NCBI GenBank assembly: GCA_022402465.1
Contig: JAKRSH010000028.1
Coordinates: 62,001-126,000, forward strand
DNA: 64,000 nucleotides
Direction of reading: 5' to 3'
Origin: Leptospiraceae bacterium
GTDB lineage: Bacteria > Spirochaetota > Leptospiria > Leptospirales > Leptospiraceae
Under the pieces are notes generated by a model. The model had not been told where the DNA came from. It made no database searches and worked only from the letters and a program-made list of their open reading frames with translations. The translations under genes were made by a program, and so were the position numbers. Each line of letters opens with the position of its first letter. The first letter of the stretch is position 1. Below, piece after piece: positions 47,517 through 55,400 of the stretch.

Positions 47517-48509
47517 TTATGAAATCATAAGTTTTTTCGTAAGTAGCTTCCACTCCCAAAGAATTAATTCTCTTTCAATTTCCCGGCTCTCATCTTGCTC
47601 CTTGGATAGCAATGCATAAATCATAGCAGCAATTTCTCTACTGAATTTCTTCTCAGCAAGTTCCTTTTCGAATTCTTCAATCTGACTATCTAAGATTAAT
47701 GTTGAAAGTCGGAATGCTTCGTTGAGAGCGACTAGCTTTTCACGACTTGCCTTTAACTCTGGTTTGTTGAACTCATTTCGAATCATAACTTCTAGAAAAG
47801 TCCGGATGAAGGCTACATCTTGGCCATTCAATTTGAAATCCAAAAGCAATTGCTTCACCTTATCCAATTCCATATTCCTAAGATGAATGCGCGCAAGGAA
47901 AACTGGATTTTGGGAATATTGATTCAGATTGGAATTTGTTATTACATCAGTAGCTCTAACCTTGCTGAAATCTACAACCTTGTTATCAGAACTCGTTTGC
48001 TTCTCTACTTTGGTTTCAAGAGAAGATATTTTCTTTTTAATTACCAAAATATTCATCGCGGGGAAGCGGATTTTTAAAGTAACCATATCTGTTCGAGGCA
48101 AATCTTCATCCACAATTAGGTAATGGAATATCTCTGAGGTCTCGCATTCCTTTACTAAATCTTCCTTAGTGGTAAAATGCTGAACTAAAACTGGTAGAAT
48201 ATCACTAGCCGACCCAGTTGCCACAAAAATTGTTTTGATTTCATTGCTGGTTCCATGTTGATAAGGGATGACTAATTTGCCCGCCTTCACATTCACAAAA
48301 CTTAATTCTGAGAGGCGAAAGTGGGAGAGATTAAAATCAGAGCCTAAGAATGCAACTCGTGGCACAGGAACCACTATGGATTTACTCTTAGAACCCCTTG
48401 GAACCTCAGGTCCATCATTCGTAAAGACAACATAGGTCATTTTGGCAAGGCGAACCTTGATCAAAAATCCTCCTGGAGTCTTTCTTTCTTCGTAAAGCGT
48501 ATCTTCCAT
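47517..48509 (-). CDS. Hypothetical cytosolic protein
   Basis: 330 aa ORF, 4 bp from the regulator gene upstream. Confidence 0.7.
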   Translation of the reverse strand: MEDTLYEERKTPGGFLIKVRLAKMTYVVFTNDGPEVPRGSKSKSIVVPVPRVAFLGSDFNLSHFRLSELSFVNVKAGKLVIPYQHGTSNEIKTIFVATGSASDILPVLVQHFTTKEDLVKECETSEIFHYLIVDEDLPRTDMVTLKIRFPAMNILVIKKKISSLETKVEKQTSSDNKVVDFSKVRATDVITNSNLNQYSQNPVFLARIHLRNMELDKVKQLLLDFKLNGQDVAFIRTFLEVMIRNEFNKPELKASREKLVALNEAFRLSTLILDSQIEEFEKELAEKKFSREIAAMIYALLSKEQDESREIERELILWEWKLLTKKLMIS

Positions 48510-48512
48510 AAT

Positions 48513-49823
48513 TTATAATAAACCTAAATTTTTCATTTTATATTGCAGGGCCCCTCTTGAAATTTTCAGAGCCTTTGCCATTCGTAATTGATTTCCTGCA
48601 AAAATCTTTTCGGCGAGTAGGATTTTTTGACGTTCTAAGGCTTCCACACATTTTGGAAGATCCAGATCATCGGAATCCTGGATGCCAATTGCTAGGGGCT
48701 TATCTTCACCCGGAGATTCCTCGTCCCAGTTCAATAGATTAGACGTAGATTTCCAAATTGCTTTACCGAGAGAATTTTTTAATTCTTCGAAATTTCCAAG
48801 CCAATTTTTCTCAGTAAGTTGCTTAAGAATATCCTGGGGAATTTCCATTTCACTTTTCCCTAAATTGTAAGCCAAATCCTTAAATACTTCTAATACCATC
48901 TGCTTTTTTTCTGATTTTTCCAAAGTATCCAAGTTTGGCAAATGGATAGAATTCTGGGAAATAAGATCCCAAAATCCAGGATAGGCTTCTTTTTTATTCA
49001 GCCCCTGGTCTATAAAGAATGCATTTTTTGCTAGGGAAGAAATTTGCAACCATTCATAAAAAATTCGCTGTTGGCCCAAACTTAAGCCAGCTAGATTGCC
49101 CAAGACTATGGACCCTTCTTCGCCTAGAATTTCTTCCCAATGGCTTAGTGCTTTTTCCAACTTGCCTACCTGCTCTGGAATGGTATCCACCCAAATCCAT
49201 TGGCCGCTTCGTCCCCATATTTTGTGAAGATATCGGGCCAGAGATTTCTTGCCACTTCCTTTTCCACCAAGCAATAGAACTGGTTTATCTTTCTGTAAAT
49301 TTTGAAATGCAAGGGAAACGGTAGGGCTATTTTTTACTAGCCATTGGATAGCAGAGTTCACATGGGAATCTTCCGAAACTACTTGAGGCTTGGGCTTTTC
49401 AGGAGTGGATAGAAAGTTCGCCAGAAGGTAAGATTGAAATTTTCTGGCTTCCCTATTTCCATCAAATTCTAAAATTATGAATCCATTAAATTGCAGACCA
49501 TCTCTCAATTTCGCAACAACTGCAAAATCCGATCTTTCTGAAAATAAGGGGAAATCCGTTTTAAGAAAAACCATGGGCTCTTCGAGCTCCTGCAATTTCT
49601 CTAAATTTCCTCTTCCACGGGCTAAAAAGGAATAGAAGAAGCCATCGTCCCCGTAACCAAAGCTGGCTTTTTCTATAAAGCCTGAACCGTCTTCGGATCT
49701 CTCCACCAATACACCGCAGATCGCTCCAAGAAGCTCTTGTGACTCCTGAAGGATTTCAATCTTACTCTTGTTCTTTTTCCCAGAATAAAGGTGCATAGAT
49801 GAAAACTGTTTAAATTTAAGCAT
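48513..49823 (-). CDS. NtrC-like regulator with degenerate AAA+ domain and Fis-type HTH
   Basis: P-loop GGKGSGKKSLARYLH, C-terminal RMAKALKISRGALQYKMKNLGLL (HTH_8); no GAFTGA motif. Start set at MLKFKQF. Confidence 0.75.
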   Translation of the reverse strand: MLKFKQFSSMHLYSGKKNKSKIEILQESQELLGAICGVLVERSEDGSGFIEKASFGYGDDGFFYSFLARGRGNLEKLQELEEPMVFLKTDFPLFSERSDFAVVAKLRDGLQFNGFIILEFDGNREARKFQSYLLANFLSTPEKPKPQVVSEDSHVNSAIQWLVKNSPTVSLAFQNLQKDKPVLLLGGKGSGKKSLARYLHKIWGRSGQWIWVDTIPEQVGKLEKALSHWEEILGEEGSIVLGNLAGLSLGQQRIFYEWLQISSLAKNAFFIDQGLNKKEAYPGFWDLISQNSIHLPNLDTLEKSEKKQMVLEVFKDLAYNLGKSEMEIPQDILKQLTEKNWLGNFEELKNSLGKAIWKSTSNLLNWDEESPGEDKPLAIGIQDSDDLDLPKCVEALERQKILLAEKIFAGNQLRMAKALKISRGALQYKMKNLGLL

Positions 49824-49846
49824 ATTGTCAACCACGTACCGTAAAA

Positions 49847-49864
49847 TTGTCGGATATCCGACAA
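49847..49864. promoter_or_regulatory. parS/operator candidate 1
   Basis: 18-bp perfect palindrome TTGTCGGATATCCGACAA between divergent genes. Confidence 0.65.
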
Positions 49865-49919
49865 AACTTTCACAGCTATATTCTTTGCTTTTCGTGCTCT
49901 TTCGAAACTCAATTCCAGG

Positions 49920-49935
49920 TGTCGGATATCCGACA
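49920..49935. promoter_or_regulatory. parS/operator candidate 2
   Basis: 16-bp perfect palindrome TGTCGGATATCCGACA, identical core to candidate 1, 72 bp centre-to-centre. Confidence 0.65.
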
Positions 49936-50009
49936 ATTTAAGAGAATTCTGGAAATTTTCTTGTAGAAAACCAGGGTTCTGACAAAGCTTCAAGAGGGGA
50001 AAAAGAAGA

Positions 50010-50759
50010 ATGATAACTGTCTCAATAGCTAACCAAAAAGGAGGGGAAGGAAAAACGACTACCTCTTTAAACCTTGCAATCGGCTTAGCGCGACGGGGCA
50101 AAAGAACCCTAATAATCGATATGGATCCTCAGGCAAATTCTACTGGAATTTTTCTAAATCCTGAAACCAGCTCCAAGAATCTTTACCATGTTTTTAATAA
50201 AAAAACTAAAATGAGCGAGGTCGTTCAGAAGGTTTATGCGGATAATTTGTATCTTGCTCCCTCTTCCACTAACCTTGCTGAATTAGAAGCGATGAATACC
50301 AACTCCGTTGAGGCTCCGTACTTATTGAGAGACTCACTTCAAGTAGTGGAAAAGGACTTCGATTTTTGCATAATTGACTGCCCACCTAGCCTTTCGATCT
50401 TTACCATAAACGCCTTGGTTGCATCTAATTTTGTCATCATACCCCTTCAGGCTGAAAAATTTTCTGTAGATGGAATCGTTGGACTCCAACAAACCATATC
50501 TAGCATCAAGAAAAGAATCAATCCGAATTTGGAAATTATGGGCGCCTTGATCACGCAGCTAAAGCCCCAAACTTTACTTACGAAAACCATAGTCCCAGTA
50601 TTGAATAAATATTTTAAAATCTTCGAGAACAGCATCTCCGACGGAGTAGCAATAGGAGAAAGTCATCTTGCTAAAAAATCTGTTTTTGACTATAATAAAT
50701 CCAGCCGTCAAGCGCAAGAGTATGAAGGCTTCGTGGAGGAATTTTTAAGTGAGCTCTAA
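50010..50759 (+). CDS. parA: ParA-family partition ATPase
   Basis: SIANQKGGEGKTTTSLNLAIGLARRGKRTLIIDMDPQANST; CIIDCPPSLSIFTINAL. Confidence 0.95.
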   Translation: MITVSIANQKGGEGKTTTSLNLAIGLARRGKRTLIIDMDPQANSTGIFLNPETSSKNLYHVFNKKTKMSEVVQKVYADNLYLAPSSTNLAELEAMNTNSVEAPYLLRDSLQVVEKDFDFCIIDCPPSLSIFTINALVASNFVIIPLQAEKFSVDGIVGLQQTISSIKKRINPNLEIMGALITQLKPQTLLTKTIVPVLNKYFKIFENSISDGVAIGESHLAKKSVFDYNKSSRQAQEYEGFVEEFLSEL

Positions 50760-51618
50760 AAGTAAACGATTAGGATCCTTAGCCGATGTCTTTAAGTCCG
50801 AATCTCTGGATGGAACTATGCGTAAAATTCGTATGGATAGAATTCAACCATCTACCAACCAACCAAGGCAGGATAGAACCAAGGGAGTAAGCGAACTTGC
50901 GGAGTCCCTGAAGAAAGAAGGTCTACTCCAGCCTATTGTTGTAGCAAAGGATGAAAAAGACGAAGACAAATATAGAATCATAGCTGGCGAAAGAAGATAC
51001 CACGCAGCAAGCAGTCTTGGTTGGATGGAAATTGAATGTAAAATTTTTGATAGAAATGAAAAAGAAATCTATAAACTAGCAATCATAGAAAATCTACAAA
51101 GAGAAGATTTGAGTGCCTTTGAAGAAGCAGATGCTCTGAATCACCTAAAACTTGAATACAAATACACAGACTCGGAATTAGCAGATATGTTTGGCAAAAG
51201 CCGAAGCTATATGTCTGAAATTTTGAGTATAGCAAACCTAAGTCCCAAGGCGGTAAAATCTTGTAGGGATCTTGAGATAGACAACAAGAACCTCTTAGTA
51301 CAAGCAGCCCAAGCGGAAAAAAAGGGAAACTTACAAGAATTCCTAGAAAGAATTAAGGCTGGGGAATTGAAGACAGTTAAAGATGCGAAAAACTTTAACC
51401 GTGGCCCAAGCATTATCGAAGTTGAGCCTACTATTCCAAATAGAGCTCCCGCAAATGAGCCAGGCCTACCCTACGATGAGCAAATTTCCAAAAAATCAGG
51501 AATTCGCATCCAGAAAAAAGCTGATTCAGTGAATGTAATAAGCGATGACCCAATTCTATTGATGGGAATCTATAAATTTATTAAAAAGGAAATTCCCAAA
51601 AAGTTTCCAAACAACTAA
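50749..51618 (+). CDS. parB: ParB-family partition protein
   Basis: QPSTNQPRQD, SLKKEGLLQPIVV, YRIIAGERRYHAASSLGW, IENLQREDLSAFEEADAL; overlaps parA. Confidence 0.95.
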   Translation: MSSKSKRLGSLADVFKSESLDGTMRKIRMDRIQPSTNQPRQDRTKGVSELAESLKKEGLLQPIVVAKDEKDEDKYRIIAGERRYHAASSLGWMEIECKIFDRNEKEIYKLAIIENLQREDLSAFEEADALNHLKLEYKYTDSELADMFGKSRSYMSEILSIANLSPKAVKSCRDLEIDNKNLLVQAAQAEKKGNLQEFLERIKAGELKTVKDAKNFNRGPSIIEVEPTIPNRAPANEPGLPYDEQISKKSGIRIQKKADSVNVISDDPILLMGIYKFIKKEIPKKFPNN

Positions 51619-51776
51619 ATTAGTACTAAGCAAACATGTACTAAGACATATTTTTTCCTTATTTTTGCCATATTCTTCCTTGACAAAATAGGCAGCCTTC
51701 CCCATAATGTGACATAATCTAGTAAACACCGATATAGTACTTTTTTGGTGGTGGGGAACGAATTGCTAGAATAAAG

Positions 51777-51838
51777 AACGATTCCCCAAGAAAAAAACCC
51801 CTGGGTGACCAGGGGCCGGGTGATCCCGAAGGAATGTT
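51777..51838 (+). ncRNA. Predicted three-way-junction RNA in the parB-rep gap
   Basis: Outer stem AAC(g)ATTCC/GGAATGTT encloses CCCCTGG-GTGA-CCAGGGG and CGGG-TGAT-CCCG hairpins. Confidence 0.45.
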
Positions 51839-51847
51839 GTTGGATGA

Positions 51848-51867
51848 GACATAATAAACATTATGTC
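51848..51867. promoter_or_regulatory. Putative Rep operator/iteron
   Basis: GACATAAT-AAAC-ATTATGTC perfect inverted repeat upstream of rep; GACATAAT also at 51711. Confidence 0.5.
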
Positions 51868-51945
51868 GGATTATTGTCAACCTACTTTGGGATTTTTTGA
51901 TTAAAATTGGGATTTTTTATGCAAAAATCTCATCGAGGTGACAGA

Positions 51946-52875
51946 ATGAGTGAACACCAATCGTATGTCCGCATCATGTCGGACATTTTGGATTCGGGAG
52001 TTTGGGCGAAGCTATCTCCAGCCGGAAGAGCCCTCTACCCCGTACTTTTGAGATTTACAGACTACAATTTTCGATATGTTTGGCCCAATACAGAGACATT
52101 GATGAGGCTAACAGGATTTCGTACGAAAAAGTCTATAGTAGAAGCCAAAAAGGATCTTGAACAAAATGGTTTAATCTTTACCGTTTCAGGATCTGGGCGA
52201 ACCAGTACTAGGTTTTACTTTCGCTTCGACTATGAGGGCTCTAAAATTACCCCTCTGGGAGATACGAGCATAAACCCCAGGGGGCTAGAAGGACAGTCCT
52301 CAGGGGCCTACACGAACGGGCTTGAGGGGGGTAAAAGCGGAAACCCGAACCATATTAATATAACTATAAACAATACCCAAGATAATAAACCTAAAGAAAC
52401 TATTTTAAAAGATGAAAAAGATCAATTTTCAGCAGAAAAGAAAATCACTAAAAATGGAGCCGCTCTTAGTTTGGAAAATCTTTTGGAAGATTATGGCGCT
52501 GATGTTTTTCATTATGCCTACCAAGAAGCGAAGAAAAGAGAACTTCATAATAATCTTCCATACATAAAAACAATTTGTAGAAATCGAATCTCCAAACTTC
52601 AAGAAACGCTTAATATTGGGCAAAAATTTGTAGATCCTCTCAGTCCTCAACCTTCTTGGTTTGGTTTTTTGGAATGGGCAAAATCAAGGCTATCTTCCTC
52701 TAGTTATAAAGATTTGCAAGAGTTGGATATTGTAGTAGATGGAGATTGCATCTGTATCCAAGAAAAAGTGACAGCATCCCAGAGAACCATAATCGAAAGG
52801 TATTTTTCCCAAGAAGTAGATACAGATATACTTGTGGTTTTTGCTTCCCCTAAAGTAGAGAACAGAATTTTTTGA
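51946..52875 (+). CDS. Winged-helix replication initiator-like protein (Rep candidate)
   Basis: N-terminal wHTH (GVWAKLSPAGRALYPVLLRFTDYNFRYVWPNTETLMRLTGFRTKKSIVEAKKDLEQNGLI) next to parAB; start at ATG 51946 with GAGGTG SD. Confidence 0.65.
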   Translation: MSEHQSYVRIMSDILDSGVWAKLSPAGRALYPVLLRFTDYNFRYVWPNTETLMRLTGFRTKKSIVEAKKDLEQNGLIFTVSGSGRTSTRFYFRFDYEGSKITPLGDTSINPRGLEGQSSGAYTNGLEGGKSGNPNHINITINNTQDNKPKETILKDEKDQFSAEKKITKNGAALSLENLLEDYGADVFHYAYQEAKKRELHNNLPYIKTICRNRISKLQETLNIGQKFVDPLSPQPSWFGFLEWAKSRLSSSSYKDLQELDIVVDGDCICIQEKVTASQRTIIERYFSQEVDTDILVVFASPKVENRIF

Positions 52876-52880
52876 ACATT

Positions 52881-55400
52881 ATGAGATATGAACCAATTCG
52901 AATTAGCCACCCAAGGCAAGTCCAACACCTACGCGTAAGCACCCCAGGGGTATTTGAGGAAAAATCAGGACAATTGATATCCTTTCTAGACGAGAAAGAA
53001 AAAAGCGGATTAACATCCATTGTATTAGAACTATCCCCTGAGAACCAACATTTCAATCGAATTGAGATCCACCCACTTGCGGGAGACACTGACTACTTCC
53101 CTGATGTCTTTCGTATAGAAATGTCCCAAGACCAAAAGTACTGGGAACCCATTATCCAGGAGTCTGGATTCAAGCGAGCTCAAAAAGCCGTAGCGTTTTG
53201 GAATTTTACCCTAACATCAGCTAAATTTATTAAGTTTATTTGCAAAGTCAGTCGTAAAACAGACCAAGGGAAGTATAAGGTATCCTTTGGCCAATTTAAG
53301 GTAATGATTTCCGGAGTAACAGGTATCCAAGCAAGTTCTGAATTGGATCGATTGAAAGTAAAAGAAAATTTAATTGATACAAGACCAGATTATGGTTGGG
53401 CTTCGAGTGAGAGACAAAATCCCCAAGATGAATTTCTCGTTTTTGATTTATCTGCGATACATAGAATTGAAGAAGTGAGAATGCTTTCTAAGCAAGACGA
53501 GGTTACAAATTTTCCAGAAAAATTTACCGTTTATTATAGCGAGGATGATCTTTCTTGGCACCAGCTTCTAGAAGAGCCTTCTTTCATGGCTGAACCTGGA
53601 ACTTGGTACCGCTGGAGATTTCTTCCAGTGAATGCAAGGTTTCTGAAAGTAATCTGCAACCAAGAGAAGCAAGCGAACAAAGTGTCCTATATATCTGAGA
53701 TCATTGAGGTTGAATTCTATGCTACACCAGATGCAGCAGATGATGATAAAGCAGGCAAGACTCAAGGACCCCTGCCATATGCCTCTGTGCTAAGAGCAGG
53801 AATGGTGAGACTTGCTGTTGATGGAGAAACACGTGAAGGTGTGTCTGTTCAAGGTAGTGATCGTAGACTTAGGGAAGGAACTACGGAATACAAAGGGATA
53901 GTTGAACTTGCTACTGATGGGGAAGATCGTGAAGGTGTGGTAGTCCAAGGTAATGATAAACGTCTTAAGAATGCTACAGAACTTGGACATGGCTTGGTTC
54001 GTCTGGCAAGGTCAGGTGAGAGCCGAGAAAACCTTGTCGTGCAAGGAAATGATGAGAGACTTAAACTTGCAAGTACGGAGAGTCCTGGTATCGTTGAACT
54101 TGCATTAGATGGAGAGACTCGACCTGGAATTGCTGTGCAAGCAAATGATAAAAGACTTAGAAAAGCTAGCCAGAAAGAACCTGGTTTAGTTACACTCGCA
54201 GCAACAGGTGATCCATCTCCAGATAAAGTAGTAACGGGTGATGATGAAAGACTTAGAGATGCAAGCACAGAGGCAAAAGGTATAGTGCGTCTTGCACAAA
54301 ATGGCGAAGATTCAGCCTTAGCAGCTGTACAGGGGAATGATAAAAGAATTAAAAATGCTACAACTGAATCTTATGGTATAGTGCAATTGGCGCGATCAGG
54401 AGAATCGAAACCTGGAGTCGTTGTTCAAGCTGATGATAATCGAATTAAGCCTGCATCCGAAGAGAACATGGGAATCGTAAGACTTGCACTTCTAGGCTCT
54501 GATGAACCTGGTAAGGCAGTCGTATCCAATGATCCTAGATTGAAAGACGCCAGAAATCCACTCCCCCACACACATGATTATGCAGCTAAAGACCATGATT
54601 ACAATTCACATTCTGGGCTGATTCGGTTAACTGGGGATACATCATCATCCTTCCAAGGAATTTTTCCTCCACCCGACAAGCACTCTGTGATTTTTGGTAA
54701 AAACCAAAATCCTGAAGGTGCCGGAATTTCGGCAATTGGAAATAAAGAAGGCATTATAGGATATTCAGATCATACTGGAGTTCTAGGTTTGTCAGCTGGT
54801 CAATCTGGCAATGGATATGGAATCTTAGGTTTAAGTAAGAGGGGATCAGGTGGTGGTTTTTCATCTCAGTCTGGTTTTGCTGTCCATGCAAATGGAAAAG
54901 GCTTCCCAGATAGAAATGTTCCTGGTTCTGGGAAAGGTCTATTGGTTGATGGTGACTCTTTGTTCCATGGAACTGTGTCCATACATCTTTCCAATAGCCA
55001 AGATTGCATAGCTAAGAAATTTAAATTAGACACTCGTGATGTGGTATCTCCTGGGGATTTGCTAGTAGCTACCGATGAATCCTTGAAGCTTGCAAAATCC
55101 AAACAGCCCTACTCTACTAATGTGATTGGCGTACTTGTTGCAAGTCCTTCCCTTCTTTTGGGAGAAGAGAAAAAAGATCCAAACGAAGGTTTGGTGGCAA
55201 TTTACGGAGCTGTGCTATTAAATGTAGATCCATCTATGGGCATGATAAATCCAGGGGACTTACTTGTAAGTGGCTTGACGAGTGGTTATGCTGTCAAAGC
55301 TGACTCAAATAAAATTAAACCAGGAACCTTGGTTGGGAAGGCTCTAGAAGCATCTAAGAAGGAACGTGGTCAGATCTTAGTTTTATTAACTCTGGGCTAA
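52881..55400 (+). CDS. Discoidin (F5/8C-like) and tail-fibre-like repeat protein
   Basis: Two N-terminal F5/8C-like domains, eight repeats of about 32 aa, His-rich linker (HTHDYAAKDHDYNSHSG), tail-fibre-like C-terminus (GDLLVSGLTSGYAVKADSNKIKPGTLVGKALE). Confidence 0.7.
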   Translation: MRYEPIRISHPRQVQHLRVSTPGVFEEKSGQLISFLDEKEKSGLTSIVLELSPENQHFNRIEIHPLAGDTDYFPDVFRIEMSQDQKYWEPIIQESGFKRAQKAVAFWNFTLTSAKFIKFICKVSRKTDQGKYKVSFGQFKVMISGVTGIQASSELDRLKVKENLIDTRPDYGWASSERQNPQDEFLVFDLSAIHRIEEVRMLSKQDEVTNFPEKFTVYYSEDDLSWHQLLEEPSFMAEPGTWYRWRFLPVNARFLKVICNQEKQANKVSYISEIIEVEFYATPDAADDDKAGKTQGPLPYASVLRAGMVRLAVDGETREGVSVQGSDRRLREGTTEYKGIVELATDGEDREGVVVQGNDKRLKNATELGHGLVRLARSGESRENLVVQGNDERLKLASTESPGIVELALDGETRPGIAVQANDKRLRKASQKEPGLVTLAATGDPSPDKVVTGDDERLRDASTEAKGIVRLAQNGEDSALAAVQGNDKRIKNATTESYGIVQLARSGESKPGVVVQADDNRIKPASEENMGIVRLALLGSDEPGKAVVSNDPRLKDARNPLPHTHDYAAKDHDYNSHSGLIRLTGDTSSSFQGIFPPPDKHSVIFGKNQNPEGAGISAIGNKEGIIGYSDHTGVLGLSAGQSGNGYGILGLSKRGSGGGFSSQSGFAVHANGKGFPDRNVPGSGKGLLVDGDSLFHGTVSIHLSNSQDCIAKKFKLDTRDVVSPGDLLVATDESLKLAKSKQPYSTNVIGVLVASPSLLLGEEKKDPNEGLVAIYGAVLLNVDPSMGMINPGDLLVSGLTSGYAVKADSNKIKPGTLVGKALEASKKERGQILVLLTLG
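53799..54560 (+). repeat. Eight tandem protein repeats, consensus GIVRLAxxGExxxGxVVQGNDxRLKxAST
   Basis: Direct reading of the translation; period about 96 nt. Confidence 0.88.

Follow-up and report, generated by a model that had tools for sequence, protein, structure and literature searches.

Two palindromes in front of parA

Which protein reads the two identical palindromes that separate parA from a divergent regulator gene in this Leptospiraceae genome? The window, which is the whole 64,000-nt stretch analyzed, contains TGTCGGATATCCGACA as a regulator-proximal copy at 49848..49863 and a parA-proximal copy at 49920..49935, 90 bp upstream of the parA start (no strand assigned to either). Both are exact matches and both are kept in relatives; their starts are 72 bp apart, and the first extends to an 18-bp palindrome (49847-49864). 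They lie in the gap between the leftward regulator gene (start ~49835) and rightward parA (start 50010), just where the initial annotation had placed two perfect palindromes of identical core. It had reported no third copy in the window, and none is present at ≤3 mismatches. Shuffled windows gave 0.07 matches at this tolerance, and none of 100 shuffles contained two. The genome-wide search that had been proposed returned two exact copies in 3.99 Mb, both at parA, so that TGTCGGATATCCGACA is confined to the region near parAB; the many dispersed copies that had been named as evidence against a centromere did not appear. No copies with one or two mismatches occur in the 3.99-Mb genome, and 3-mismatch matches genome-wide are at the level of a reversed-pattern control. 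Within the regulator-parA gap a promoter scan gave no sigma-70 match, and an Rfam search over the region returned nothing above threshold.

The gene block and its origin setting

The sites belong to a conserved block whose order is 330-aa protein, Fis-type regulator, sites, parA, parB, rep and discoidin protein. The 330-aa protein (47517..48509, minus strand) has no Pfam match and is conserved in the block. The regulator (48513..49835, minus strand) matches Pfam Sigma54_activ_2 and, below threshold, HTH_8; it has a degenerate sigma-54-interaction AAA domain and a C-terminal Fis HTH. parA (50010..50759, plus strand) encodes a 249-aa Walker ATPase (Pfam AAA_31, E=1e-54) that begins directly at the KGGEGKTT motif and lacks an N-terminal HTH. 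Its reading frame overlaps that of parB (50749..51618, plus strand; 289 aa), giving the gene pair of a type I ParABS system. The replication-initiator-like rep (51907..52875, plus strand) has Pfam HTH_36, and its best homologues are in L. interrogans chromosome II (CII) and a Turneriella plasmid. A discoidin-domain repeat protein gene (52872..55400, plus strand) closes the block; it is conserved, and its homologues in L. interrogans and T. parva are annotated as discoidin domain-containing.

The block has the identical order in L. interrogans chromosome II (L009), recurs with one small extra gene on the 25-kb Turneriella parva plasmid pTURPA.01 (L010), and is found in most genomes of the class. 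Over the 173-kb contig, cumulative GC skew reaches its global minimum at window position 50639 (contig 112,639), inside parA, an origin signal. The genome paper on L. biflexa likewise locates the origin of chromosome II at a partition operon followed by a rep gene (PMC2229662). From this layout, the synteny with L. interrogans CII and pTURPA.01 and the skew minimum, the locus is a Leptospira chromosome-II-type origin, a type given by block and skew and not implying that the organism carries it as an independent replicon. In G018 and G008, two relatives whose assemblies have few contigs, the block is on contigs of 184 kb and 250 kb.

Several arrangements of the block were seen besides. On one 1.41-Mb contig (G002:C2; L060, L108) a chromosome-II-type block and a chromosomal parB with canonical parS lie 0.7 Mb apart, possibly a replicon fusion. 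Another genome (G033) has two diverged copies of the whole block (L088, L091), each with two identical sites. In several of the family's genomes, the contig that has this parAB also encodes a second ParA with a short ParB-like protein of ~235 aa (G000:C21:155495, L119; also L120-L123).

Conservation of the site

We compared the block sequences from 38 class genomes with L. interrogans CII, giving 40 distinct parA loci. A 14-mer search was used, with the core letters fixed except for the centre. Every one of the 40 readable parA loci has an intact GTCGGAYRTCCGAC upstream of the gene, and most have two or three; in one genome (G014) parB is at a contig edge and no copy is readable. Genome-wide there are 78 copies in 48 class genomes (~172 Mb), where ~2.6 are expected by chance, and all 78 are inside this gene block; the genome-wide count equals that in the fetched loci, so there is no GTCGGAYRTCCGAC outside the block. 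Nine class genomes without this ParB have none. Because the genomes of the class are related, a Fisher test overstates their independence. This is the pattern of a cis-acting palindromic parS near parAB and the origin, conserved with its ParB. Conservation beside parA, the lack of which was to count against the proposal, extends over several families, Leptospira and Turneriella; in L. interrogans CII two copies occur in 350 kb, both in the regulator-parA gap. When the centre was left free, 80 of 81 sites had a pyrimidine-purine step there, and a looser search (≤3 mismatches) found few degenerate versions. The exact motif in viral contigs was set aside: 12 single copies, about chance level, none with a related protein.

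Two placements are common: ~70-120 bp upstream of parA, and at a distance of 10-60 bp from the regulator start. The regulator and parA of G020 are parted by a 2.4-kb insertion, and each still has a site of its own close by. Six loci (G031, both in G033, G036, G037 and G038) have an extra site within the coding sequence of the 330-aa protein, at codons that are the same in all and 1.3-1.6 kb from the gap site; the residues encoded there are not kept in relatives without that copy (G035, G039). The argument that a 72-bp spacing puts both sites on the same helical face found no support. In relatives the distance between adjacent sites runs from 32 bp to 2.2 kb and shows no significant phasing (Rayleigh p ~0.08), and helical phasing of the pair was dropped.

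Relation to canonical parS

From the centre outward, the half-site of canonical parS reads G T G A A A C A and that of the present site family R T C C G A C N. Half-site positions 3-5 are thus CCG here and GAA in canonical parS, position 1 is G or A, and the window copies additionally have T, not C, as central base. The initial annotation was right that the 16-bp length and TGT..ACA ends are those of canonical parS; its statement that the core differs completely went too far, as only positions 3-5 of each half-site and the central base differ. The window site has 8 mismatches to canonical chromosomal parS (TGTTTCACGTGAAACA), for which about one is allowed, and relatives with a CG centre have 6; those with TGTCGGACGTCCGACA have 10 of 16 bases in common with TGTTTCACGTGAAACA. 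The outermost base of the family is variable, and tolerance at the outermost base pair has been measured for Burkholderiales parS (PMC5450999). The same genome has a chromosomal parB and canonical parS on another contig, and canonical parS was found in 24 of the 48 class genomes, away from this block.

ParB and its recognition helix

The window ParB has ParB_N (E=1e-21) and a central HTH_ParB, scores 121 bits with TIGR00180 (cut-off 58), and matches solved Spo0J/ParB/Noc structures. It carries the CTP-binding motifs GERR and ENLQR; in the class ParB alignment G80-ERR and E114-N-x-Q-R are invariant. A ParB search of the genome contigs collection gave one distant match only.

GKSR[SN]Y..E, the recognition helix, does not vary among the 38 ParBs of this type. 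By alignment, position 178 is E and 175 is Y in 38/38, where the chromosomal ParBs of the class have N and T (15/15). D at position 162 is also invariant in this lineage, and R173 is kept throughout (38/38). In Caulobacter ParB, R173 contacts parS base 1, and the contacts common to ParB and Noc are Q162, G170, K171, S172, N178 and R204 (PMC7383237). A carboxylate (E178) facing cytosine is chemically reasonable, and E178 may face base 3 or 4. The segment G201-R204 appears replaced as well, and is not relied on because the alignment is gapped there.

The best NCBIfam model for this ParB is Noc, below threshold (TIGR04285, 138 bits; cut-off 315). A Noc would have Q at 173, K at 179/184, NBS scattered over the chromosome and a passing Noc score; here 173 is R in 38/38, 179 is I in 35/38, and all sites are beside parA.

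Which protein binds the sites

On the evidence of sequence comparison, the palindromes are very probably the parS of a ParABS system that is dedicated to a Leptospira chromosome-II-type replicon and partitions it. The earlier proposal of a candidate centromere or operator of a non-canonical ParABS thereby gains support, from the restriction of the motif to this region and its conservation beside parA in relatives. ParB is favoured as binder because one genome keeps the sites without regulator or rep, because of the copies in a coding gene, and because its helix is re-specified. The genome concerned, G039 (99% complete), is the only one in which the sites are seen independently of the regulator. 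It has three intact sites; the 330-aa gene directly faces parA, no rep follows parB, and no regulator was detected in the locus or in the rest of the genome (best E 0.06; relatives reach 1e-160).

The most serious competitor is the Fis-type regulator, for which the palindromes would be operators controlling its own operon and parAB, with ParB binding elsewhere. Fis/NtrC-family regulators bind paired dyads; this one is divergent from parA, the sites often lie 10-60 bp upstream of its start as operators would, and in G020 a site remains near each of the parted genes. Its HTH recognition helix is nearly invariant (SRGSLQ[YH]), so that variability of this HTH, tried as an argument against it, was uninformative. 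We nevertheless consider this explanation unlikely: G039 retains three intact sites with no detectable regulator, which also speaks against a sigma-54 activator operator (UAS); six loci have a site within a coding gene far from both promoters; the site is a parS variant, matching at the positions that flank the changed core triplet; and no further parS candidate was seen in the regulator-parA gap. The GAFTGA motif is absent from the window regulator sequence. With its own conserved HTH, the regulator might share these sites with ParB.

That the palindromes are Rep-binding origin elements or iterons is very improbable. In its favour, the palindromes are part of the origin region, the GC-skew minimum is close by, and rep belongs to the block. 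Against it, the palindromes are upstream of parA and some 2 kb away from rep, the parB-rep gap contains its own set of conserved elements, and G039 keeps three sites with no rep after parB. The sites in G039 and the extra copies in the 330-aa gene speak for loading of ParB here rather than for an operator of the regulator or of Rep. Binding by ParA or by the 330-aa protein has the slimmest chance of all; both genes are retained in G039, but the 249-aa ParA lacks the N-terminal HTH found in operator-binding type Ia ParAs, and Pfam recognises no DNA-binding domain in the 330-aa protein.

Proposed mechanism

For the parS reading we infer direct ParB binding, a CTP clamp, a segregation function and autoregulation. 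A ParB dimer would read the 14-bp core GTCGGAYRTCCGAC with one HTH per half-site. Members of the ParB family, after loading, close as CTP-dependent clamps, spread and are moved by ParA; the window ParB would then do the same. Many ParBs control their own promoters, and loading here would probably also repress or tune the promoters of parA and the divergent regulator, since parA usually, and the regulator often, has a site immediately in front of it. Site placement, including that in G020, suggests such control. Centromere and operator roles may both hold. It is conceivable, though somewhat short of an even chance, that a class-wide ParB lineage has a recognition code of its own (D162, Y175 and E178, R173 being retained) for a parS changed at three positions in each half-site, and that the sites double as operators linking centromere occupancy to expression of parAB and the regulator/330-aa operon.

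Comparison with known systems

As in the canonical chromosomal ParB-parS system (Spo0J family; TGTTTCACGTGAAACA), a 16-bp perfect palindrome lies beside parAB near the origin, with TGT..ACA ends, A/T next to a Y-R centre, and a ParB with ParB_N, HTH, GERR and ENxQR. The differences are half-site positions 3-5, the changes N178 to E and T175 to Y, and the presence of a separate canonical system in the same genome. Secondary replicons with a private parS are already known from Vibrio chromosome II (PMC7022226) and the Burkholderiales (Bsr; PMC5450999). The Bsr systems also have their own 16-bp palindromic parS, distinct from that of the main chromosome and with a tolerant outermost base pair (PMC5450999), but sequence, phylum and gene block are other, and the Bsr centre is CG where any Y-R step occurs here. 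Vibrio cholerae ParAB2-parS2 (NTTTACANTGTAAAN; PMC7022226) is likewise a second-chromosome system in which centromere sequence and ParB are private; that site is different and has about ten copies, against usually two or three at parA here. Noc-NBS is comparable in that Noc, a ParB paralogue, came to recognise another site by changes where it meets the DNA (PMC7383237); unlike Noc, which has Q, this ParB keeps R173 and has changed N178, common to ParB and Noc, and its few sites are all beside parA.

The parA-parB-rep origin module is shared with the par-rep replicons of Leptospira chromosome II, p74 and LE1 (PMC2229662, PMC4338851). L. interrogans CII has the full block and the motif in common with the window, unlike the sampled Leptospira plasmid and LE1-like phage par loci, which have different ParBs and lack the motif. 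The papers found do not name the centromere of the chromosome II, p74 or LE1 replicons, searchable papers gave no description of one for chromosome II and its relatives, and a search of the open literature (subscription papers outside its scope) gave no relevant match to the motif. New are the site itself, the way it is fixed throughout the class together with a single ParB lineage of the Leptospira group, and the changed recognition helix. The site is a precise, testable centromere candidate for Leptospira chromosome II and relatives. The ParB would add a further natural specificity to the ParB/Noc family; because N178, a DNA contact common to ParB and Noc, is replaced, swaps of residues and bases offer a test of the recognition code. 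An orthogonal ParB-parS pair built on these sites could also be useful for labelling DNA and for stable vectors in laboratory Leptospira.

Other elements

A candidate antisense RNA lies between parB and rep (window 51794-51880, minus strand) and is conserved in the class, including L. interrogans CII, the Turneriella plasmid and others. Its candidate promoter, TTGACA-18-TATTAT, is followed by ~50-60 nt with conserved CCAACA..TTCC and then by a GC hairpin and T-run, whose stem differs between genomes with pairing retained. It has no Rfam family and is probably a counter-transcribed copy-control RNA of rep. The parB-rep gap (51700-51880) also has repeated GACATAAT motifs, common to many relatives, which may be iterons for Rep or may partly belong to the promoter of the antisense RNA. 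In Leptospira phage LnoZ_CZ214 (L154), a 28-bp perfect palindrome, AGGAAAGTGCATCCGGATGCACTTTCCT, is found upstream of the phage parA and is a candidate parS of the LE1-like par system.
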